64,000 bases of DNA from NCBI GenBank assembly GCA_030065635.1, contig JASJDJ010000013.1, positions 1 through 64,000 of the forward strand, in the 5' to 3' direction. Below the pieces are notes generated by a model. It was not told the origin of the DNA, did no database searches, and worked only from the letters and a program-made list of their open reading frames with translations. The DNA is from Xenococcaceae cyanobacterium MO_188.B32. Lineage in GTDB: Bacteria; Cyanobacteriota; Cyanobacteriia; Cyanobacteriales; Xenococcaceae. Made by a program: the position numbers and the translations under genes. Positions 14,469 to 56,042 of the stretch are shown piece after piece; position 1 is the first letter of the stretch; every line of letters starts with the position of its first letter.

Positions 14469-15221
14469 ATGCTATCGCTCGAAATTCCCCAAGTTTCTTC
14501 TGAAGCTGAATTAACTCCTAAAAATCGCCTGCTTTTAGTAGAAGATGAAGATCTAATTCGAGATATGATCGTGGTTGCTTTAGAAGAAGAAGGTTACGAG
14601 GTTCATACAGCTATTGATGGCAGATCTGCCTTAAATTTTTTACAAAGTCCTAATGTAACTAATGGCGAATCTGCCCCCGATCTGATTATTTTAGACCTGA
14701 TGTTACCCGAAATTAACGGGCTAGATATTTGTCGTCTATTGCGTTATCAAGGCAACATTACTCCTATCCTGGTTATCAGTGCTAAAGCTAGTGAAACCGA
14801 TCGAGTTTTAGGTTTAGAAGTGGGAGCAGATGATTATCTTACTAAACCTTTTAGTATGAGGGAATTAATTGCTCGTTGTCGTGCTTTACTTCGCCGTCAA
14901 CGCTACAGCAATTTATCTCCTACTCCTGTCCAGAAATTTCGTGAAATTAGTTTATTTCCCCAAGAGTGTAGAGTTATAGTTCGTGGAGAAGAAGTAAATT
15001 TATCTCCTAAAGAATTTCGGCTATTAGAATTATTTATGAGCTATCCTCGTCGAGTTTGGTCGCGAGAACAGTTAATCGAGCAAGTTTGGGGTCCAGATTT
15101 CTTGGGCGATACCAAAACTGTAGATGTGCATATCCGTTGGTTACGAGAAAAAGTAGAAAAAGACCCCAGTCAACCAGAATATTTAATTACCGTTCGTGGT
15201 TTTGGCTATCGTTTTGGCTAA
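14469..15221 (+). CDS. sphR: OmpR-family response regulator, likely SphR (PhoB-like)
   Basis: The receiver domain spans about residues 20-135, with acidic pair Glu25/Asp26, phospho-acceptor Asp76 (ILDLMLP) and Lys126 (LTKPF). A winged-helix DNA-binding domain follows (about 150-248), ending with the YLITVRGFGYRFG signature. The gene is followed by a histidine kinase, a PhoU homologue, a porin and a phosphate-binding protein. This supports SphR, the cyanobacterial phosphate-starvation regulator. The assignment rests on this context and on resemblance to SphR; other OmpR-type regulators are possible. Confidence 0.85.
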   Translation: MLSLEIPQVSSEAELTPKNRLLLVEDEDLIRDMIVVALEEEGYEVHTAIDGRSALNFLQSPNVTNGESAPDLIILDLMLPEINGLDICRLLRYQGNITPILVISAKASETDRVLGLEVGADDYLTKPFSMRELIARCRALLRRQRYSNLSPTPVQKFREISLFPQECRVIVRGEEVNLSPKEFRLLELFMSYPRRVWSREQLIEQVWGPDFLGDTKTVDVHIRWLREKVEKDPSQPEYLITVRGFGYRFG

Positions 15222-15295: not shown

Positions 15296-16636
15296 ATGGC
15301 TGCTGTTGATTTTTGCTTGGGTATAGTTGTTGGTCTGAGTTTTTACATCTGGAAAAGACACCAATTTAAGCACCAACTACGACTAGTTTTTAAATCCTTT
15401 TCTCCTCGTGGTGATTGGGTATCTTCTCTGCCACCACTCTCTCTGGTGCGACGAGAACTAACTTACGTACATAAGCAGCAACAAGAACTAGCACGACAAC
15501 TGCAAATTTGGCAGGAATTAATCGAGCGAGCACCAATCGGCTTTTTAAAAGTAGATGCAGAAAATCGTTTACTTTGGTGTAATCAACAAGCAAGACAGCT
15601 ATTAAATATAGACCGCTGGCAACCAGAACAAGTACGCTTACTCTTAGAGTTGGTGCGTTCCTATGAATTAGACCGCTTAATCGAACAAACTCGTGAGTTA
15701 CAGCAACAACAGGTGCAAGAATGGACTTATTATTACACTCACTATGCATCTAAACCGCAAAATATCCCATCAGTTAACGTTGCCAAAAAAATAAAGTCTC
15801 TGGCTTTGCAAGGCTATGGTTTTCCTCTACCCGAAGAAAAAGTAGGTGTTTTTATAATCGATCGCCAAGCTTTAGTAGATTTATCTAAATCTCGCGAAGA
15901 AGCTTTTGCCGATCTTACCCACGAATTGAGAACTCCTCTAACTTCCATTGCTTTGGTAGCAGAAAATTTACTCAAACGACTCGACGATCCCGAACGTCGT
16001 TGGGTAGAACAAATGTTGCAGGAAATAAATCGTTTAATTGACTTAGTAAGAGAGTGGTTAGATCTAACTCAGCTACAACGCGATCCCCATCAATCTCTCA
16101 ATTACGATCTGGTTGAATTACGGTCGCTAATTTTTTCTGTCTGGCACATTCTCAAACCAATTGCTGACAAAAAAGATGTTACTCTGGTTTACTCTGGTAC
16201 AGAATCGGTAAACATAGAAGCAGATCGATCGCGCCTAATTCAAGTATTTTTAAATTTATTAGATAATGGCATTAAGCATAGTCCTATAGGAGAACAAATT
16301 GTAGTAGAAGTCAAGCCGACAATCCAAAATAATGCTGCCGATCGAGAAGATGCTGCCGTAGAAATCGATATTATCGATTCGGGAAGCGGATTTGCTCCTG
16401 CTGACTTACCTTATGTCTTCGAGCGATTATACCGAGGAGATAAATCGAGAACCAGGCAAGGACAGACTAAGGAATTGTCTACTTCTGGTGGTAGTGGTTT
16501 GGGTTTAGCGATCGCCAAACAAATTATTGAAGCTCATCGAGGTTCTATTGAAGCTAATAATCATCCCGAAACTCAGGGAGCGTGGCTAAAAATATTGCTT
16601 CCTACTAAAAGGAAATCATTAACTAAAGATAGATAG
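15296..16636 (+). CDS. sphS: Sensor histidine kinase, likely SphS
   Basis: The 446-residue kinase has a short N-terminal hydrophobic segment (about 3-20) and a PAS-like domain (about 73-190). The dimerisation/H-box is FADLTHELRTPLTS, with His209. The ATPase domain has N-box NLLDNGIKHS, G1 DSGSGFAP and G2 GGSGLGLAIA. The layout matches cyanobacterial SphS, which activates SphR when phosphate is scarce. It lies 74 bases after sphR in the same direction, probably in the same transcript, with phoU next. Confidence 0.87.
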   Translation: MAAVDFCLGIVVGLSFYIWKRHQFKHQLRLVFKSFSPRGDWVSSLPPLSLVRRELTYVHKQQQELARQLQIWQELIERAPIGFLKVDAENRLLWCNQQARQLLNIDRWQPEQVRLLLELVRSYELDRLIEQTRELQQQQVQEWTYYYTHYASKPQNIPSVNVAKKIKSLALQGYGFPLPEEKVGVFIIDRQALVDLSKSREEAFADLTHELRTPLTSIALVAENLLKRLDDPERRWVEQMLQEINRLIDLVREWLDLTQLQRDPHQSLNYDLVELRSLIFSVWHILKPIADKKDVTLVYSGTESVNIEADRSRLIQVFLNLLDNGIKHSPIGEQIVVEVKPTIQNNAADREDAAVEIDIIDSGSGFAPADLPYVFERLYRGDKSRTRQGQTKELSTSGGSGLGLAIAKQIIEAHRGSIEANNHPETQGAWLKILLPTKRKSLTKDR

Positions 16637-32415: not shown

Positions 32416-34782
32416 TCAGACAACTTCATAGGCAAAACTAATAGTTGCCCAATTACGAACATCTAGGGCGTAAATATTGGTATTAGAACCTACAATCTCT
32501 GATGAGACAGCACTAGCTTGGTGCAAATCTTTTAGTAATGCCTTGGTTACTTCTAAAGAATTGATGATATTAATAACTTGTTCTTTTTCTAGTTTTAAAT
32601 TCTGTTTAGTTGATAAAGCCAAGTTGGTTTCTGTAAAAGGGGCAGTAGCAAAGATCGAATAAACTTTAGCTATTCCCGCAGAACTAGAGACTTTCCAACC
32701 TACAGAATTTTCTGGAGTAGGAATAATTAACTCTTGTTTGGGAGCGATCGCGATATTGTTAATTTGGTTGGGATTTTCAGGGTTTTCTGCTTTTTGAGGG
32801 TTTAGCAAAGCGATCGCATCTCCATCTGCATCTAAACCCAAAAGCATCAAATAAAGAGGACGATCTTCATAATTATTAATACGAAACTGTAGTTGACTAC
32901 CATCAGCCACGACAGGTAAAACAGAATCGAGATTATTAGTTTTGGCTAAGTTTTTTGAGGATTTTGCCTTATTGGTACTAGCACGAAAAGTAGTTTTTTC
33001 TGCCAGTAACGTATAGTGTGATTCTATTGACTCTAGAGCCACGTTCACTCCTAAAAGAGAAGAACCTTGATTGACAGTCAAATCGAGCCATTTAGCAGCA
33101 AGCAGACTATTTAATTGAGGAGTTAAACGTTTAACAGCTAATTTTACTGCTTCATCGGCTACCCCTACTGTTTTAGGCAGAATATCTCCACTGAAAGAAA
33201 ATAAGCCATAAGCGGATTCTTTTTTTTGCTCTTTTTGCGAAGCATCTGCTTCTTCTGTTGATTCACTTTCTGTTTCAGGTTGTTTAGCTACTTTCCCTAG
33301 CAAATAATCAGCATTTTTTTCGCCTCTAATAGCTACATCATCTACCGCAGCCACATTAGCAAAAGCACTAGTAGCATCTACTCTTTCAATTCTTTCTAAA
33401 CTAGGAGCGAAAGCCATTACTAATCCTAGTTCCTGAGGGAAAACACGAATTACTTCTTGAACTAACTGTCCTATTTCGATATCTTTTGAAGAGACTTCTT
33501 GATTTAATAATTGAGCTTTAGCGGTTAAACCGTCTCGCCCACGAATTTGTAGCCAGGTTGATGAACTGAGAGGAGTCACGGGAGCGTTCATCTTTTCTTG
33601 CTCTGATTCTTCTGTTGGTGTAGCCATTGAGGAAGAATCTAAGGGGACTAAGCAAAAACAGGAATTAACTCCATAGTTATCTATCACTTTAAGAGGAAGT
33701 CCTGTGAGCTTGAGAGCGAGCGTATTTTTATCTTCTTTGTTGATGACTACTCCTTCTGCGGATACAGTGCTAATAGGCATTAAATAATAGGTAAATAGAG
33801 GTTTATTTTTGCCCGTTAATGTCGGTTTTTGTTGAGTACCGAGCAAATATTCGACTTTTTCCCCAGTTTTTTGCCGGGTTATCTGTACTTTACTCGCTGA
33901 GGTGACTTGCCAAAGGTATTGAGTAAGGGCGTAGGTAAATAAACCTGCGCTGAAACCATTCCCTTTATATTCCGCAGCTACTTGATTTTCTCCTGCTGCT
34001 GACAAAATTGTTCCTGGTACAGAAGAGTTATTGCTATTAAACCCGAATAAATTATTACCTAGTTCTGCTTTTAGTTGCTCTAGAAAGGCTAATTCCTGAG
34101 AACTAAAACTGTCAGCAATCTGTTTTAAAGAACGTATTTTGAGATTACCTCGATATAATTTTGGGGTTGGACTGAAGCTAGTATCCAGAATAATAGTTAA
34201 TTTATCTGTAGCCAGCGATCGCCCTAACCAATAAAGAGTTTCTTGAGATAAATAATTAGCAACAGAGATATCTTTTGATGATACTATTCCATCCACAGGA
34301 ACTAAACTATTTACTAAATTATTAACAGAAGATGCCGATTGTTCTGACTCTTGAGCCGATTTGGAAGGCACTTTAACTTGACTACCATAGCCACTAAAGT
34401 GAAACACTATTACATCTCCTGCTTGAGCTTGTTTCCCTAAATGCTCGATAAAAGCAGTTTCAATTTTTTCCCTGGTTGCTTGTCGAGCGGTTAAAGTAAG
34501 AACGTCTTCTGGCTGAAAGCCAAAACGATGAATCAATAATTCTCTTTGGAGCTCTACATCTGTAATACAGCCATCAAGGTTATTATTGGCAGAATATTGG
34601 TTAATTCCTACCAGCAAAGCTAATTTACGATTAGTAGTCTGGGCTAAAGTTTGTAAATAAGGCTGGATCGAAGATTGCCATTTACCCTGTTTACCCAAGA
34701 TACCAATCCCTGTTTCCGATATTCCCAGAGTAAATAGAGTTACACCAGCCTGTTGCAGAAAAGTTCGCCGATTGAGTCTCAT
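32416..34782 (-). CDS. Caspase-fold (peptidase C14) protein, catalytically substituted
   Basis: The protein of about 788 residues starts MRLNRRTFLQQAG, a Tat-like signal, so it is probably exported. A caspase p20-like domain spans about residues 50-300. The position of the catalytic His reads FHFSGYGSQ, with Tyr in place of the usual His of SGHG. The Cys position reads LDTSFSP, with Ser where DCC or DSC is expected. It therefore lacks the His-Cys dyad. Such Tyr/Ser versions are known among cyanobacterial orthocaspases. The long C-terminal part has no domain I recognise. I start it at the ATG rather than the GTG two codons upstream. Confidence 0.88.
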   Translation of the reverse strand: MRLNRRTFLQQAGVTLFTLGISETGIGILGKQGKWQSSIQPYLQTLAQTTNRKLALLVGINQYSANNNLDGCITDVELQRELLIHRFGFQPEDVLTLTARQATREKIETAFIEHLGKQAQAGDVIVFHFSGYGSQVKVPSKSAQESEQSASSVNNLVNSLVPVDGIVSSKDISVANYLSQETLYWLGRSLATDKLTIILDTSFSPTPKLYRGNLKIRSLKQIADSFSSQELAFLEQLKAELGNNLFGFNSNNSSVPGTILSAAGENQVAAEYKGNGFSAGLFTYALTQYLWQVTSASKVQITRQKTGEKVEYLLGTQQKPTLTGKNKPLFTYYLMPISTVSAEGVVINKEDKNTLALKLTGLPLKVIDNYGVNSCFCLVPLDSSSMATPTEESEQEKMNAPVTPLSSSTWLQIRGRDGLTAKAQLLNQEVSSKDIEIGQLVQEVIRVFPQELGLVMAFAPSLERIERVDATSAFANVAAVDDVAIRGEKNADYLLGKVAKQPETESESTEEADASQKEQKKESAYGLFSFSGDILPKTVGVADEAVKLAVKRLTPQLNSLLAAKWLDLTVNQGSSLLGVNVALESIESHYTLLAEKTTFRASTNKAKSSKNLAKTNNLDSVLPVVADGSQLQFRINNYEDRPLYLMLLGLDADGDAIALLNPQKAENPENPNQINNIAIAPKQELIIPTPENSVGWKVSSSAGIAKVYSIFATAPFTETNLALSTKQNLKLEKEQVINIINSLEVTKALLKDLHQASAVSSEIVGSNTNIYALDVRNWATISFAYEVV

Positions 34783-34853
34783 ATGCACTATTAGCTTTCA
34801 GATATCAGGTATCACCCTATCAGGAATACCCCTTTGATGTTAGTTGTTCTCAC

Positions 34854-41250: not shown

Positions 41251-42174
41251 ATGACCTTAGCTGCTAAAGAACCAGTTTATATTATTATTCCAGTTCATAA
41301 CCGCAAAGACATTACTCTTAAATGTTTAGAACATCTAGATAAAAGTGGGGACTTACAAAAATATCATGTTGTTGTAGTAAATGATGGTTCTACCGATGGT
41401 ACTACAAAAGCAATTCATTCTTTATATCCCAATGTAACTGTTCTTCTTGGTGATGGTAACTTGTGGTGGACAGGCGCAATTAAAAAAGGAATGGAATATG
41501 CTTACGAGCAAGGTGCAGAATATTTTATTTGGTTAAATGATGATTGCTTAGTAAGTGATCGCGCTATACGAGATTTAGTGAACTTTAGTTTCAATAATAA
41601 GAACAGTATCATTGGCTGTCAAGTATATGAACTAAATAGTCCCGAAACAATTTCTTTTGGAGGAAGTTTTAAAAACTGGAAAGGTTATCAATTTATTAAT
41701 TTTCCAGAAAATGAAATTAATAAATGTGATGTACTAAGTGGTAACTTAGTTTGTATTCCTGTAGCAGTAATTGAAATAATTGGATATCCTGATGCGAATA
41801 CTTTTCCACACTATGGAGGAGATATTATATTTTTTATTCGAGCGAGAAAAGCAGGATGTAAAATCTTTATAGATTCCAGAAATAAAGTTTTTAATATTGA
41901 TAATCAAGTTAAAAAAGTAGCTCCCAACAGATGGATGTTAAACGATGGAAATCCGCTGTCAGTTATTAAATTAATTTTTACTCCGCAATCTATACTGAAT
42001 TGGAAAATAATCTTAGTTCAAGATTGGGAAGATTATGCACTGTTAGGAGTATTATTATATTTTTATAAATACGTATGGAAAATTTTAATTCCCATAATAT
42101 TTATCACTTTATTACGATTTCTTCCTTTATCTATCCGTTATAAATTATCTAACTTAAAAAATAAATATGTATGA
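41251..42174 (+). CDS. Glycosyltransferase family 2
   Basis: The GT-A fold protein has the start YIIIPVHNRKDITLKCLEHL, the VVNDGSTDGT nucleotide site and an LNDDC metal motif. It ends in one or two hydrophobic segments (about 240-300), so it may be membrane-associated. It opens a three-gene glycosyltransferase operon that overlaps the next gene by four bases. The products probably build an exopolysaccharide or glycan; sugar specificity is unknown. Confidence 0.9.
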   Translation: MTLAAKEPVYIIIPVHNRKDITLKCLEHLDKSGDLQKYHVVVVNDGSTDGTTKAIHSLYPNVTVLLGDGNLWWTGAIKKGMEYAYEQGAEYFIWLNDDCLVSDRAIRDLVNFSFNNKNSIIGCQVYELNSPETISFGGSFKNWKGYQFINFPENEINKCDVLSGNLVCIPVAVIEIIGYPDANTFPHYGGDIIFFIRARKAGCKIFIDSRNKVFNIDNQVKKVAPNRWMLNDGNPLSVIKLIFTPQSILNWKIILVQDWEDYALLGVLLYFYKYVWKILIPIIFITLLRFLPLSIRYKLSNLKNKYV

Positions 42175-43352
42175 TAAAAATTTTATTTATTACACCTACA
42201 GCAAGACAAACTGGTTCTGAGATAGTTCTATATAATTTACTGTCTAATTTGAATAAACAAGATTTTAAGGCAGTAGGTTTAGTATCTAAATTAAATGGGG
42301 TTTTACTAGACAGATTATTCAATGATATTGATATACCTACTTATAGTTTTGAATCTTATTTAAAGAAATTATCTTTTTTAATCAATCAAGTAGGGTTGAG
42401 CCTTCTGAAGAAAAAAAATTTTATTGCTTTTCATAGTAATATAAAACAATATCTTTTTCATTGTTTCTTACAGCACATACATAATTTATTAGAGCCTGAC
42501 TATTGGTATATCAACACCCTTGTCATTCCTGAGGCTTTAGAATATGCTTGTTTGCATAATATTCCTTGTATAGTGCATTCTCACGAACTTGAGCAAATGC
42601 TAGTGCATTTAAGCGATCGAGATGTAGAGAGAATAATCAATTATCCTAAATTGATTATTGCTTGTTCTAATACTGCTGCAAATATGCTTAGAATCTTAGG
42701 AAGAGATAGAAACCTCGAAATTTGTTTTTCTAGTATTAATACCAGTAAAATTATTCCCAGTAGTCAACTTTCACAAAAGATTAGAAATAATTTAGGAATT
42801 AAAGAAAAAACTTTTTTGTGGGCTAATTCAGGTAGTACAGATACCAATAAAAACCCGTTACTATTTGTAGAAATTGCAGCTAATTTATTAAAAAAACAAA
42901 AACAAAATATTCATTTTATGTGGATTGGAAATAACCCTTCAAGTGGTTTGGATTTCTTTGCTAAACAATACGCTAAACATCTTGGTATAGCAGATCGAAT
43001 AACATGGACTGGTATTCTAAGTTCTGAAGAATACTACAATCATTTGTATGCCGCTAATGGTCTTGTTGTAACCTCTACTAAAGAATCATTATCAGCAGTT
43101 TCAATAGAAGCACTATATTTACAAAAGCCAATTGTATCATTTGATTGTGGAGGTACTAAAGAAATTATTCAAGATAATCTAGGCTATGTTGTAAATTCTT
43201 GGAATATAACCGATATAGTTAATCAAATGATTCAAGTAATGAATGACAATCTTCATTTTTGTCCTGAAAAAGCACGAAAGCAAGCAATAAAATACGATAT
43301 AAATTTGCAAGCTGTTCGATGGAATCAAATACTAAATCAATATATTCTTTGA
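42171..43352 (+). CDS. Glycosyltransferase family 4
   Basis: The 393-residue GT-B protein has an N-terminal TARQTGSEIVLYNLL acceptor-side loop. A C-terminal nucleotide-sugar domain has FLWANSGSTDTNKNPLLFVEIA and the E-x7-E-like SLSAVSIEALYLQKPIVSFDCGGTKEII motif. It overlaps the preceding gene by four bases, so the pair is translationally coupled. The overall base composition is more AT-rich than in the core genes. Confidence 0.9.
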   Translation: MIKILFITPTARQTGSEIVLYNLLSNLNKQDFKAVGLVSKLNGVLLDRLFNDIDIPTYSFESYLKKLSFLINQVGLSLLKKKNFIAFHSNIKQYLFHCFLQHIHNLLEPDYWYINTLVIPEALEYACLHNIPCIVHSHELEQMLVHLSDRDVERIINYPKLIIACSNTAANMLRILGRDRNLEICFSSINTSKIIPSSQLSQKIRNNLGIKEKTFLWANSGSTDTNKNPLLFVEIAANLLKKQKQNIHFMWIGNNPSSGLDFFAKQYAKHLGIADRITWTGILSSEEYYNHLYAANGLVVTSTKESLSAVSIEALYLQKPIVSFDCGGTKEIIQDNLGYVVNSWNITDIVNQMIQVMNDNLHFCPEKARKQAIKYDINLQAVRWNQILNQYIL

Positions 43353-43361
43353 TTAATATTA

Positions 43362-44288
43362 ATGTCTTATAATATTGCTGCTTATATTACTGCTTATCAA
43401 GATAAAGATAGTGTTAAAACTTGCATTAATTGTATCCAAAAACAATTATTATCTGTTGCTACAATATTTATTGTAGATAACTCCCCCAAACAATTAATCA
43501 AGTATGATGTCCATCCAAAAATTATAATTAATCATCAACCAGATAATATTGGTATTTCAGGTGGGTTAAACATTGCAATTAAATGGGCAATAGAAAATAA
43601 TTATGATTTTCTTTGGGCTTTTGATCAAGATAGTAAGCCCTTACCTGATAACCTTAACCAACTAATTCAATACTATAATAATTTAACTAACAAAGGTCAC
43701 AATATTGGTATTATCGCTCCTTTACCTGTAGATATAACAACAGGACAAACATGGCATGGTATTGAGTTTAATCGATATAAATTTACTGAAGTCAAAAATC
43801 ATACAGACAAGAATGAATATTATTCTTGTGATGCAGTAATTACTTCTGGTTCTTTAATTAATTTAAAAGCTGCTAAAAAAGTTCCTCCACCAAAAGAAGA
43901 GTTATTCATAGATGCTGTTGACTGGGATTATTGTATGCAGTTTAGAAAACAGAACTATGAAGTGTTCTTGGTTAAAGATATACTATTTCCACATCGTTTT
44001 GGAAATTCTTATCAAATAAAAACCATATTTAAACCCCAAAAAATTACGATATATCAATATTCACCGCTTAGGTATTTTTATATTTGTAGAAATTATACAT
44101 TTTTAGAAACTCGCCTTGCTCTTAAAAATAATCTTTTACATAGATCTATATCCCGTAGATTATATTTTTTGATAATAATGCTGGGAAAAATTATCTTATA
44201 TGAAAGAAATAATACTGTGTTAAAAGTTTGGGCTTGTATCAGAGGTACTTGTGATGGATTTATCGGTAAACTAGGTAAAACTTGGTAA
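43362..44288 (+). CDS. Glycosyltransferase family 2 (rhamnosyltransferase-like)
   Basis: The 308-residue GT-A protein has IAAYITAYQD, FIVDNSPKQ, a DNIGISGGLN motif and WAFDQDSKP carrying the DxD. The layout is typical of WbbL/RfbF-like rhamnosyltransferases, though the sugar is uncertain. It follows the GT4 gene by nine bases and ends the cluster. The flanking DNA on its right is a duplicated higB start. Confidence 0.88.
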   Translation: MSYNIAAYITAYQDKDSVKTCINCIQKQLLSVATIFIVDNSPKQLIKYDVHPKIIINHQPDNIGISGGLNIAIKWAIENNYDFLWAFDQDSKPLPDNLNQLIQYYNNLTNKGHNIGIIAPLPVDITTGQTWHGIEFNRYKFTEVKNHTDKNEYYSCDAVITSGSLINLKAAKKVPPPKEELFIDAVDWDYCMQFRKQNYEVFLVKDILFPHRFGNSYQIKTIFKPQKITIYQYSPLRYFYICRNYTFLETRLALKNNLLHRSISRRLYFLIIMLGKIILYERNNTVLKVWACIRGTCDGFIGKLGKTW

Positions 44289-44324
44289 ATACCAAAAGTA
44301 ATGAGAGAGAAAGAGATATAAAGC

Positions 44325-44444
44325 TATATAATCAAATTTTGAGACAAACGCAATACTGATACGAAAATTTGAATGCGGATTATCAGCAGAAGAAAATTGA
44401 GAGAATTTTGGGAAAAACATAGTGATGGTTACTCAAAACTTTGA
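44325..44444 (+). pseudogene. Truncated second copy of higB with its leader
   Basis: The stretch repeats the promoter and first 18 codons of higB (MRIISRRKLREFWEKHSD), matching 40200-40302 with scattered differences. It then breaks off after CATAGTGATG into the TnpB remnant, and a stop follows five codons later. It is a partial duplicate and cannot make a toxin. Confidence 0.85.
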
Positions 44445-44744
44445 CTTGCATGAATTTTGTAGGTCATGGATACCATAAAATCCCAGCAATCCTAGAAGTT
44501 CCAAATTCTTGGAGGCATTGAAATCGGCGTGTTCGACACCATGAAGACAATTAACGCACAAAAATCGATCTCCTCTACGATTTCGCCTGTCCCATTTGAA
44601 ACAGTGCCGACAAAATTGCGAAGTTTTCCAGGGATTTTTGCGTATTACCTCAATCCCCAATTCTTCACATTTTCGTTCCAACAAAGTCTCAGAGTAAGGA
44701 AATTTAGTACCGTTAATTGAAGACTTGGAGAAAGTTATTATCAT
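44433..44744 (-). pseudogene. TnpB (IS200/IS605 OrfB) remnant
   Basis: About 103 codons encode the C-terminal zinc-ribbon of TnpB, with the paired Cys motifs FCRHC and FLCVNC. The last RuvC aspartate is in EHADFNASKNL. The N-terminal wedge/RuvC parts are missing, so it is not a working nuclease. It lies directly against the truncated higB copy and probably broke it. Confidence 0.85.
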
Positions 44745-44834
44745 TTTATCTAAAAGATCTGATAATTCCTGAGTTTAGATCTCACAGTTGAAATTGTGGT
44801 AGTAAAATAATACTATTTCACAAGCTGGCAAATT

Positions 44835-45449
44835 ATGACATCAATTCTCTTAGAAGGATTTGAACCAATTAATCTCGATCTTGAAGATTCAGAACAAAAA
44901 TCAATTATTACTGGAGTCAGTTGGAAAGATTACGAACTGTTATTAAATTATCTTCGAGATAGTTTACGCTATCGAATTACTTATCTAGATGGAACATTAG
45001 AAATTATGTCTCCTAGTCGTAGTCATGAATTCAGCAAAAAAAATATTGCCAGACTATTAGAAGCATATCTAAATCAAGCTGAGATTGATTACTGGGGTTA
45101 TGGTTCGACTACATTTCGCAAACAAAATAAAAAATCTGGGAAAGAGCCAGATGAATGTTATTGTATTGGTACAGAAAAAGAATTTCCCGATCTTGCTATA
45201 GAAGTTATTGTTTCTAGTGGTGGTGTTGATAATTTAGAAGTTTATAAAAGACTGGGAATTAAAGAAATTTGGTTTTGGCAAAATGACTGCCTTACCATCT
45301 ATTATCTAAATCAAAAAGGTGAGTATCAGCCACAAAACAAAAGTGTTATTTTGCCAGAATTAGATGTTAATCTTTTAGCATCTTACGTAACTGCTTCTAA
45401 TCCACGTATTGCAGTCAAAGAGTTTTTATCACAAATTTCCTCAAGCTAA
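44835..45449 (+). CDS. Uma2-family (PD-(D/E)XK) endonuclease-like protein
   Basis: The 204-residue protein has the DUF820/Uma2 restriction-like fold, with ITYLDGTLEIMSPSRSHE, then the catalytic core FPDLAIEVIVSSG and a GIKEIWFWQ strand. The family is greatly expanded in cyanobacteria and of unknown function. Its end overlaps the convergent glycosyltransferase by nine bases. Confidence 0.9.
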   Translation: MTSILLEGFEPINLDLEDSEQKSIITGVSWKDYELLLNYLRDSLRYRITYLDGTLEIMSPSRSHEFSKKNIARLLEAYLNQAEIDYWGYGSTTFRKQNKKSGKEPDECYCIGTEKEFPDLAIEVIVSSGGVDNLEVYKRLGIKEIWFWQNDCLTIYYLNQKGEYQPQNKSVILPELDVNLLASYVTASNPRIAVKEFLSQISSS

Positions 45450-46388
45450 AGCTAATCTAAACAATAATCGTAGCCAAAACCATTTTATAGATATTGGCAA
45501 TTTATCAAGACAAGTTTGTTTAAATAGTTCCATAATATCTAACGCATCTCTAAAATTACCGCGCTTAATTTGCCGATAAGTTCCAGCCAGAATAAATTGA
45601 TGAATAAAATCAGATTTGCATTTTTCAACTTGTTTAGAATCTAGGATATTCAGCTTTTCTACACGACTAAACAAACTTAGTAACATATTAATCGTTTTTT
45701 TATTAAACATTTCGGTAGTTAAAGCATTAGTATGGATTGTATAAGCACTAATAGCATTAGGCAAACACAATAAACCATGCTTAATTAAAATTCTAATCCA
45801 CATATCTAAATCAGCTATTTCTCCTATTTCAGGATCGAAATAACCGATTTGTTTAAAAATATCTCTACGAATAACTATACTTGGAAATCGAATAAAAGAA
45901 GAATTAGATAATACTTTTACCAAAGCTTTTTCTGGAGGTAGATATAATTTACGTTTAAATAGTTGTTTTTTTTTGACTTTCTCTTGTTCATTTACTACAT
46001 GAACACCGAACAGCATTACAGGATATTCTTTTTGGTTATTTTTAATTACTTTAATAATTTTTTCTACTGCATCTTTTAATAAGAAATCATCATCATGAAG
46101 CACTAAAATATATTTACCTGACGCTAACTGAATCGAATGATTCCAATTTGCAGCCATTCCTAGTCTTAGCTGGTTATGTACGTATTGATAACTAATATTT
46201 AGAGGTGTTAAGATTTCGCCGACGATTGTGCTACATTCATCAGAATCAGAATCATCAGAAATAACAACTTCTACATACTGTTTATTCTCATTAATATTTG
46301 CAACTATCGATCGCAATGTTCTCTCAAACCAAATAGGTCGATTGTAAGCAGGAATACAAATACTCAAAAGCTTATCTTGCTGTATCAT
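45441..46388 (-). CDS. Glycosyltransferase family 2
   Basis: The 315-residue GT-A protein has LLSICIPAYNRPIWFERTL, a VVISDDSDSD site and VLHDDDFLL with the metal-binding acidic run. The C-terminal 80 residues are helical and variable. It is the only intact plus- or minus-strand sugar transferase between the TnpB and IscB remnants. Donor and acceptor are unknown. Confidence 0.9.
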   Translation of the reverse strand: MIQQDKLLSICIPAYNRPIWFERTLRSIVANINENKQYVEVVISDDSDSDECSTIVGEILTPLNISYQYVHNQLRLGMAANWNHSIQLASGKYILVLHDDDFLLKDAVEKIIKVIKNNQKEYPVMLFGVHVVNEQEKVKKKQLFKRKLYLPPEKALVKVLSNSSFIRFPSIVIRRDIFKQIGYFDPEIGEIADLDMWIRILIKHGLLCLPNAISAYTIHTNALTTEMFNKKTINMLLSLFSRVEKLNILDSKQVEKCKSDFIHQFILAGTYRQIKRGNFRDALDIMELFKQTCLDKLPISIKWFWLRLLFRLALA

Positions 46389-53789: not shown

Positions 53790-56042
53790 ATGAACTCATC
53801 TAATGGCAATTCAACCAACAGTAGTCCTATTATCGACTCCAACGATCGAGAAAGTCGGATTCGTATCTTGGTAGTAGACGATCAGAAAATGATTCGAGAA
53901 GGGCTCAAAGCTCTAATTAAAACCGAGATGGACCTCGAAGTAGTAGATACTGCTGACAATGGCGAAGATGCTCTTAAGAAAGTAGAAACTCTTCAACCAG
54001 ACATTGTTCTGATGGATATGGAAATGCCTGGTATGGATGGAATGAGTGCAACAAGAGCCATCTGTCAAAAGTTCAAAGATGTTCGAGTTCTAGTCTTGAG
54101 TACTTACGATCGCCAAGAATATGTATCTCGTTCTTTAGGTGCAGGGGCAATGGGATATCTTCTCAAGGGAACCCCAGCCAAAGAACTTACCGATGCCATT
54201 AGATCGGTTCATCGTGGTTATGCTCAAATAGGTCCCGGAGCATATCAAAAATTACCTTTAGACCCCAATGTTCAGGAACCGCAAACTCCACCAAGTCCTG
54301 CCAATATACTGAGTAAAACTAAACCTGCCACTCCTCAAGTCAATCCAAAAGAAGAAGGTTCATTAATTTCTACTAAACAATCAGACAGCAAATCTACGTT
54401 AGCTGTCAAAAATAAATCTCCTTTGGCTCGGAGAAAATTCGAGCAGACAGTTATTTTAAGACAATCTCCTAAGTGGTCGCGGGCGATTATTTGGGCAGTT
54501 ATGGGAGTAACAACCTTTGCTGTTCTCTGGTCGGCAGTAGCAAAAATCGAACTAGTAGTTCCTACTCGTGGTCAGCTTAAACCTGTAGGCAAAGTCAAAG
54601 AAATACAAGTACCAACTAATGGTGTAGTCAAAGAAGTCTTTGTAGAAGATGGGGAAAAGGTTGAAAAAGGTGAATTACTATTTAGTTTAGACTCTACCGC
54701 CTCAAAAGCAGAACTAGAATCTGCCAAAGAAATTTTGCAATCTTTATCTCAGGAAAATAAGCTATATAAAGCTTTAATGGACAATTCTATTAGTAGCGAT
54801 AATCTAGATGAAATGATTGCTAAGTTAGAACTCCCTAGAGAAGTTGTCTTGTTATCTCGCAATAGAACTGAATTGGTTGAAGAAAATCAGCTATTTAGGG
54901 CTGAATTAGGATTGCCTCTTGAAAGAAAACTAAGTCCCGAACAAATCTCTAGGTTACAAGCTGCTCAACAAGAGTTAAAATCCCGTACAGCAGCAGCTAG
55001 GCTAGAAGTAGAACAACTAGAAAAACAACTCAATCAAAATCAAATACAATTAGCCGATACCAGAAAACAATTAGCTACTGCTAGAGTCGTATTAGCAGAA
55101 ATTAAGCAACGCAATGATGAGTACATAAAACAAGCAGAGGCAAGCCTAGAAATCGAGCGCGGTATTGTTGATTCTATTGAACCTCTGGTTCGAGAAGGGG
55201 CTTTATCTGAATTCCAATTAAAAACACGGCAACAGCAATTAAATGACCGTTACGCGCAAATTGTAGAGCAAAAAGCTAGCGGAACTATCGAATACGACCG
55301 CCAGCAACAAGAAATAAAAACTCTGTTGGCAGAGATCGACCGTTTGCTCGAAGAACAAAAACGCTTAAATTTAGATATAGCTCAAGCTAGAGAAGAATTG
55401 CTCAACACAACATCTCTTTCGGAAAAAAATATTAGGGATAAAATTGCAGAGAATAAAAAGAGTATTGCTCAAATTGATAGTCAACTAAATAAAACTATTA
55501 TTGAAAATAATAAGCGTATTGCAGAAACAAAAAGTCAAATTAGTCGCGCCGAACAAAATTTGAGATATCAAGAATTTCGTTCTCCTGTAGATGGCACGGT
55601 TTTCGATTTAAAAGCTTTTCCTGGTTATGTACCACCTACTGGACAAGCAGCATCTACACAACCAGTCCTTAAAATTGTTCCTGATAATTATGTAGTAGCT
55701 GAAGTTTTTATTCCTGCTAAAGATATTGGTTTTGTGGAAAAAGGTATGGTTGCTGATGTAAGAATAGATACTTTTGATTTTAGCGAATTTGGCGATGTTA
55801 AAGGAAAAGTGCATTCTATTGCTTCAGATGCTCTAGAACCAGACCAAAATTACCAATTTTTCCGCTTTCCTGCCCAAATCGAGTTAGAGCAACAATATAT
55901 TGATATTCGGGGTAAAAATTTTCCGCTTCAGTCGGGTATGTCTATTAGTGCTAATATTAGAATCCGAGAAGACAGAACTGTACTAAGTTTATTTACAGGA
56001 AGATTAAAGAAAGGGGCAGACAATTTCAAAAAACTAGAATAG
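53790..56042 (+). CDS. Receiver domain fused to HlyD-type membrane fusion protein
   Basis: The 750-residue protein starts with a full NarL-type receiver domain (about 23-145): Asp30/Asp31, phospho-acceptor Asp76 in LMDMEMPG, Ser104/Thr105 and Lys126 in LLKGT. A Pro/Lys-rich linker (about 155-225) leads to one transmembrane helix (about 230-251). A HlyD adaptor follows, with a first lipoyl half-motif GVVKEVFVEDGEKVEKGELLFSL (split 275-297), a long coiled coil (about 310-590), and a second lipoyl half (RSPVDGTVFDL) and beta-barrel to the end. The receiver would face the cytoplasm and the adaptor the periplasm. No ABC transporter or kinase gene is adjacent. The frame is continuous, so it is a true fusion in this sequence. 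Confidence 0.93.
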   Translation: MNSSNGNSTNSSPIIDSNDRESRIRILVVDDQKMIREGLKALIKTEMDLEVVDTADNGEDALKKVETLQPDIVLMDMEMPGMDGMSATRAICQKFKDVRVLVLSTYDRQEYVSRSLGAGAMGYLLKGTPAKELTDAIRSVHRGYAQIGPGAYQKLPLDPNVQEPQTPPSPANILSKTKPATPQVNPKEEGSLISTKQSDSKSTLAVKNKSPLARRKFEQTVILRQSPKWSRAIIWAVMGVTTFAVLWSAVAKIELVVPTRGQLKPVGKVKEIQVPTNGVVKEVFVEDGEKVEKGELLFSLDSTASKAELESAKEILQSLSQENKLYKALMDNSISSDNLDEMIAKLELPREVVLLSRNRTELVEENQLFRAELGLPLERKLSPEQISRLQAAQQELKSRTAAARLEVEQLEKQLNQNQIQLADTRKQLATARVVLAEIKQRNDEYIKQAEASLEIERGIVDSIEPLVREGALSEFQLKTRQQQLNDRYAQIVEQKASGTIEYDRQQQEIKTLLAEIDRLLEEQKRLNLDIAQAREELLNTTSLSEKNIRDKIAENKKSIAQIDSQLNKTIIENNKRIAETKSQISRAEQNLRYQEFRSPVDGTVFDLKAFPGYVPPTGQAASTQPVLKIVPDNYVVAEVFIPAKDIGFVEKGMVADVRIDTFDFSEFGDVKGKVHSIASDALEPDQNYQFFRFPAQIELEQQYIDIRGKNFPLQSGMSISANIRIREDRTVLSLFTGRLKKGADNFKKLE

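Follow-up and report, generated by a model that had tools for sequence, protein, structure and literature searches.

The window analysed here, a stretch of 64,000 nucleotides (contig JASJDJ010000013.1, positions 1 to 64,000; own genome designated G000), carries a gene in which a phospho-receiver domain (REC) is followed by a HlyD-type export adaptor. This locus raises the question of whether the two halves truly form one protein, which exporter such a protein would serve, and whether phosphorylation could act on an export machine directly.

The fusion protein and its conservation

The fusion gene (53790..56042, + strand) is open from ATG to stop in a single frame and encodes 750 amino acids. 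Its N-terminal part is a NarL-type receiver (residues 26-138; 53865..54203, +) matched by PF00072 Response_reg with an E-value of 5.7e-29 (101 bits vs a curated cut-off of 30.2). Asp76 (codon 54015..54017, +), the predicted phospho-acceptor, is present together with Asp30, Asp31, Ser104 and Lys126. A loosely conserved linker (residues 142-226; 54213..54467, +) leads to a single transmembrane (TM) helix (residues 227-250; 54468..54539, +), which is helical in the AlphaFold model and predicted to have its N-terminal side inside. Beyond it lie a biotin-lipoyl-like half motif (residues 271-301; 54600..54692, +; PF13533 Biotin_lipoyl_2, E 8.9e-8, 32.2 bits vs a Pfam cut-off of 29.8), a periplasmic alpha-helical hairpin made of AlphaFold helices and matching EmrA, MacA and HlyD (residues 303-592; 54696..55565, +), and an HlyD_3 region that comprises the second lipoyl half and the beta barrel (residues 596-703; 55575..55898, +; PF13437, E 1.5e-19, 71.2 bits vs 22.2). 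In a sequence profile search, the HlyD_3 region also matched 8dck and 7sgr, structures of the HlyBD complex.

The AlphaFold model, a monomer built on 35 relatives, has a pLDDT of about 90-97 in the receiver and below 50 at residues 156-225 of the linker, which are predicted to be disordered; its pTM of 0.42 is expected because the parts are flexibly joined. In a Foldseek search, DesR/NarL receivers matched the N-terminal receiver (rmsd about 1.4 A; by target, a TM score of about 0.92), and EmrA, MacA and HlyD matched the remainder of the protein. The TM helix, both lipoyl halves, the helical hairpin and the beta barrel are thus all present in AlphaFold and Foldseek, which is the anatomy of a membrane-fusion protein. 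The sequence-only reading had described this order of receiver, linker, TM helix and HlyD part, with its coordinates, an intact NarL-type receiver and Asp76, and was right on each. It had also placed the receiver on the cytoplasmic side; the positive flank just before the TM helix (7 K/R vs 1 D/E), together with the general topology of such adaptors, argues strongly for this location. The fusion scores 186.1 bits against TIGR01843 type_I_hlyD, under its cut-off of 208.65, and therefore no membership in that family is claimed; the other cyanobacterial adaptors tested, including REC-less operon members, also fall below it (153-206 bits).

Every one of the 27 genomes sampled from the host's GTDB family carries the fusion, which is complete in one frame in 25 and cut by contig ends in the other two. 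Its hosts include Xenococcus PCC 7305, Hyella patelloides LEGE 07179, Waterburya agarophytonicola KI4 and several Pleurocapsa/Xenococcaceae MAGs, and some of the family assemblies consist of only 1, 2, 6 or 7 contigs. When 84,980 species genomes were scanned with a peptide pattern, the fusion was returned from cyanobacteria only. In a plasmid collection, the best matches were REC-less relatives only, and none of the places matched spanned 80% of the query. Class-wide searches retained the best 2-3 places per genome, so that counts beyond the family are lower bounds.

Across the six pairs compared, the receiver was the most conserved part in every pair, with 75-96% identity compared with 64-87% for the HlyD part and 38-84% for the linker. 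In a codon comparison in which some synonymous distances are near saturation, dN/dS was 0.02-0.16 for the receiver vs 0.08-0.19 for the adaptor; by these estimates, purifying selection acts more strongly on the receiver than on the adaptor. The full set of three Asp, Ser and Lys active-site residues is complete in all 16 of the window-type sequences whose N-terminus can be read. A 17th, from a MAG (L019), has an N-terminal frameshift and keeps D76, the Ser and the Lys.

It might be argued that the fusion is passive, being either an artificial join from sequencing or assembly, or a neutral fusion that yields two functional products. The frameshifted MAG copy fits such an explanation, as do a receiver and a DevB gene that adjoin in separate frames in genome G397 (L282, see below). 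An assembly join or frameshift artefact is nevertheless ruled out, since the junction recurs in 27 genomes of the family, of which several come from isolates or are near-closed assemblies; strong purifying selection speaks against a neutral fusion. A separate adaptor made from a conserved internal start is likewise ruled out: the sole candidate in the window, a TTG at codon 212, is missing in the closest relative. We therefore consider a passive origin very improbable, and at sequence level it is already refuted. The single unbroken frame of the sequence-only reading thus survives a check for the very join that might have undone it, while the impression of a one-off fusion does not, given its family-wide presence and the receivers on several other kinds of adaptor described below.

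The candidate ABC partner

A profile search found no ABC_membrane protein on the window's contig, which bears out the earlier remark that the partner exporter lies outside the window. The relatives of the adaptor point to where it may be found. Among homologues without a receiver, the closest (572-601 aa, about 50% identity) belong to other families of the order; at most of the loci examined, these orthologues occupy third place in a PPIase - ABC - HlyD operon. One such operon is annotated on plasmid pAQ7 of Picosynechococcus PCC 7002 (SYNPCC7002_RS15550-15560), with an extracellular nuclease gene just upstream.

An orphan exporter of the HlyB or peptidase-ABC type, which the sequence-only reading had suggested seeking elsewhere in the genome, is indeed present. 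Contig C150 of the own genome carries a PPIase (42027-42767) and an ABC gene (42780-45818) with no HlyD alongside. The ABC protein contains cNMP_binding, C39-like, ABC_membrane and ABC_tran domains, of which the C39 domain is degenerate and the cNMP-like domain N-terminal, and it passes TIGR01846 type_I_sec_HlyB (750.7 vs a curated cut-off of 725.55 bits). The other family genomes read also have PPIase-ABC without HlyD, usually after ispF; in three of them the contig ends too soon for the neighbourhood to be decided. An ABC of the C150 type occurs in every genome searched for it (71-91% identity). Together with the orthologous PPIase-ABC-HlyD operons, this orphan exporter upholds the proposed link to type I secretion.

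The histories of the two genes also run in parallel. The ABC tree mirrors the REC-HlyD clade, both with an SH-aLRT of 100, and pairwise ABC and REC-HlyD distances within the clade are correlated (r = 0.90, 91 pairs). Five near-closed family genomes have one ABC of the C150 type each, and no REC-less HlyD of this type was among the matches listed for them, so that the REC-HlyD is the adaptor left for pairing. The two genes are unlinked in the window's family and lie about 1.9 Mb apart in a one-contig genome (G428). TolC-like genes are present in the own genome. Because PPIase-ABC persists without an adjoining adaptor and the REC-HlyD is located elsewhere, comparative sequence evidence indicates that the REC-HlyD and the C150 PPIase-ABC are very probably partners. 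The ABC protein of contig C173 was rejected as the main partner, since a PPIase and a HlyD of its own (L131) go with it.

The HlyD tree groups the window-type fusions in a single clade (SH-aLRT 100), which branches from within these REC-less adaptors. It seems that the window's adaptor moved out of the operon and acquired a receiver, its pairing with the ABC being kept in step. In four genomes of other families (G168, G216 and G242 of f40, and G057 of f41), a REC-HlyD is the gene after PPIase-ABC; these proteins fall outside the window clade.

Receivers on other export adaptors

Receivers were also detected on adaptors of several other kinds. Another operon type has the order ABC - HlyD - PPIase (type B); its HlyD occurs with or without a receiver, and the type B REC-HlyDs are placed between ABC and PPIase. 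Receivers on DevB stand beside DevC on contig C161 of the own genome and at three other loci (L223, L269 and L277). On C161 (L130:12475-15546) the REC-DevB has 653 aa and is followed by a DevC-like permease, an order shared by the other three loci; the contig also carries P450, dioxygenase and NRPS-like genes. Further receivers are found on MacA-like adaptors beside MacB-like genes (L272 and L280), on a likely RND-type adaptor (L281) and on an adaptor within a polysaccharide region (L220). At L268 and L283, receivers are joined to proteins with weak Wzz/GNVR matches amid glycosyltransferase genes, and these Wzz-like fusions suggest that polysaccharide export may be under phospho-control too. 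Fusions of this last kind are probably also present at L270, L271, L273, L274 and L276.

Some related arrangements were observed as well. At L282:2510-5629 (G397), a stand-alone receiver of 131 aa lies directly before DevB and DevC, all in separate frames, which could reflect a gene that is split, interrupted by an in-frame stop or misread in sequencing. In the own genome, C269 (L132:1464-2849) encodes a 461-aa receiver-TM protein whose C-terminal part is weakly HlyD-like, and the receivers of the longer fusions at L222 and L226 group with that of C269. In seven other proteins of this genome (L084, L086, L087, L090, L091, L094 and L095), a NarL-type receiver is followed by a linker and by a TM segment that lies at the C-terminus or close to it, and there is no adaptor domain; it is possible that they are the source or the partners of the receiver-adaptor fusions.

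Spread of a single fusion event everywhere was rejected: on the HlyD tree, the presence of the receiver requires 10 changes, at least six of them forced by well-supported branches. The receiver tree, which is poorly resolved and weakly supported, does not unite the fusions. It is quite possible, though we would stop short of calling it probable, that in Pleurocapsales-type and some other cyanobacterial lineages single-pass export adaptors of the envelope (at least two type I HlyD operon types, DevB, MacA-like, RND-type and Wzz-like) have time and again acquired receivers at their cytoplasmic end, as a general form of direct two-component export control that bypasses transcription.

Phosphorylation and comparison with known systems

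For the protein of the window, we rather favour the reading that it is the periplasmic adaptor of a cyanobacterial type I secretion system, with a cytoplasmic receiver on its N-terminal tail, the C150 ABC protein as partner and Asp76 as a switch. HlyD-type adaptors are hexamers around the ABC transporter, as established for E. coli HlyBD, and therefore about six receivers on flexible linkers would lie beside the cytoplasmic face of each exporter. The short cytoplasmic tail of E. coli HlyD, which stands where the window protein has its receiver, contacts the substrate and takes part in channel recruitment. In such an assembly, a kinase encoded elsewhere would phosphorylate Asp76, which would alter receiver-receiver contacts within the adaptor ring, as in regulators of the DesR/NarL type; the altered contacts might then control how the adaptor tail engages the substrate and the ABC protein and recruits the outer-membrane channel (TolC). 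The cytoplasmic parts of such adaptors are essential to recognising the substrate and to assembly (PMC8277102, section 7.2), and the substrate may bind the cytoplasmic part of HlyD (PMC4648471). For the window protein, phosphorylation-dependent control of adaptor assembly or substrate engagement is a moderately supported proposal.

Asp76 is kept in 45 of 48 REC-adaptor sequences. Three type B REC-HlyDs have degenerate phospho-sites (L207, DDGT; L214, DNNT; L255, DAGG); having lost phospho-acceptor or acidic-pair residues in adaptors that are otherwise intact, they are natural pseudo-receivers. Since some type B relatives lack Asp76, phosphorylation is not the whole story in every member. As for the kinase, none adjoins a REC-HlyD in the loci read. 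The own genome has only three HisKA_3 kinases (contigs C33, C36 and C188), each beside a NarL-type DNA-binding regulator and none near the fusion, and in the receiver tree the window-type receivers are nearest three NarL-type DNA-binding regulators (support 86). Possible sources of phosphate are cross-talk from the HisKA_3 kinases, another kinase class or a small phosphodonor. The sequence-only reading had noted that the kinase is not in the window; an OmpR-type response regulator (14469-15221) and a HisKA kinase (15296-16636) form a PhoB/PhoR-like pair on the + strand, about 37 kb from the fusion. This pair is unrelated to the fusion, the kinase having its own OmpR-type regulator. The window also encodes a 790-aa caspase-like (Peptidase_C14) protein with DUF4384 (32416-34788, - strand).

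The same observations bear on two other roles for the receiver. It could be a phosphorylation-independent module for docking, dimerisation or localisation that pairs adaptor subunits or docks on the exporter, its phospho-site being retained mainly for folding or Mg binding. The three type B proteins that keep the receiver despite a lost Asp76 or acidic pair agree with such a role, as do the loci read, in which no kinase accompanies the gene; however, conservation of Asp76 in nearly all REC-adaptor sequences, retention of every readable active-site residue in the window-type proteins and the very low dN/dS of the receiver make it unlikely, if still worth keeping in mind. Alternatively, the membrane-tethered receiver may serve as a phosphate sink or reporter that competes with soluble NarL-type regulators for the three HisKA_3 kinases and so tunes transcription to the state of the exporter, the signal then running in reverse or sideways. 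The proximity of window-type receivers to the regulators paired with these kinases and the seven receiver-TM proteins without an adaptor are both in its favour, but it leaves unexplained why receivers were joined separately and repeatedly to different kinds of exporter adaptor, and we regard it as improbable.

The cytoplasmic tails of adaptors are little understood, and control of type I secretion is usually put at transcription (PMC8277102). A receiver on the adaptor tail, set beside REC-less orthologous operons, offers a ready-made comparison for the role of the tail and for asking whether phosphorylation can switch an export machine. Recurrence across adaptor kinds, with a mixture of intact and degenerate sites, opens the question to comparison and mutation. 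These findings suggest that such cyanobacteria may switch export machines on and off directly, and not only via gene expression.

None of the open-access papers searched describes a REC-HlyD protein, in line with the earlier reader, who knew of no characterised example; protein databases may well list the architecture without comment. NarL, DesR and VraR share the receiver fold and residues with the window protein (about 39% identity to the DesR receiver, rmsd about 1.4 A), but their output is a DNA-binding helix-turn-helix, whereas that of the window protein is an envelope adaptor. E. coli HlyD of the HlyB-HlyD-TolC system (7sgr, 8dck and 5c21) has the same single N-terminal TM helix, lipoyl, hairpin and barrel parts and is matched by profile and fold, and the candidate ABC partner passes the HlyB model; the window protein differs in falling below the TIGR01843 cut-off. 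The pAQ7-type operon is homologous in its HlyD part (47.5% identity over residues 217-749), and homologues of its partner ABC and PPIase are present in the window's genome. The PCC 7002 HlyD, however, has 559 aa, no receiver and a place inside the operon, whereas in the window gene a cytoplasmic REC and linker together add about 226 aa, and the gene is sited away from the operon.

The closest analogue in design is Alg44, in which a cytoplasmic signal domain is joined via a TM segment to an adaptor domain. Through Alg44, alginate export is controlled post-translationally by c-di-GMP. Its signal domain is a c-di-GMP-binding PilZ instead of a phospho-receiver, and it belongs to a polysaccharide synthase system rather than to an ABC exporter. 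The combination of PilZ and HlyD domains in Alg44 is described in PMC4971617. A Pfam scan found no PilZ in the window protein, and the comparison with Alg44 is an analogy only. The adaptor and receiver families are each well established, and the candidate partner is a standard HlyB-type exporter; what seems to be new is the joining of receiver and adaptor in one protein.
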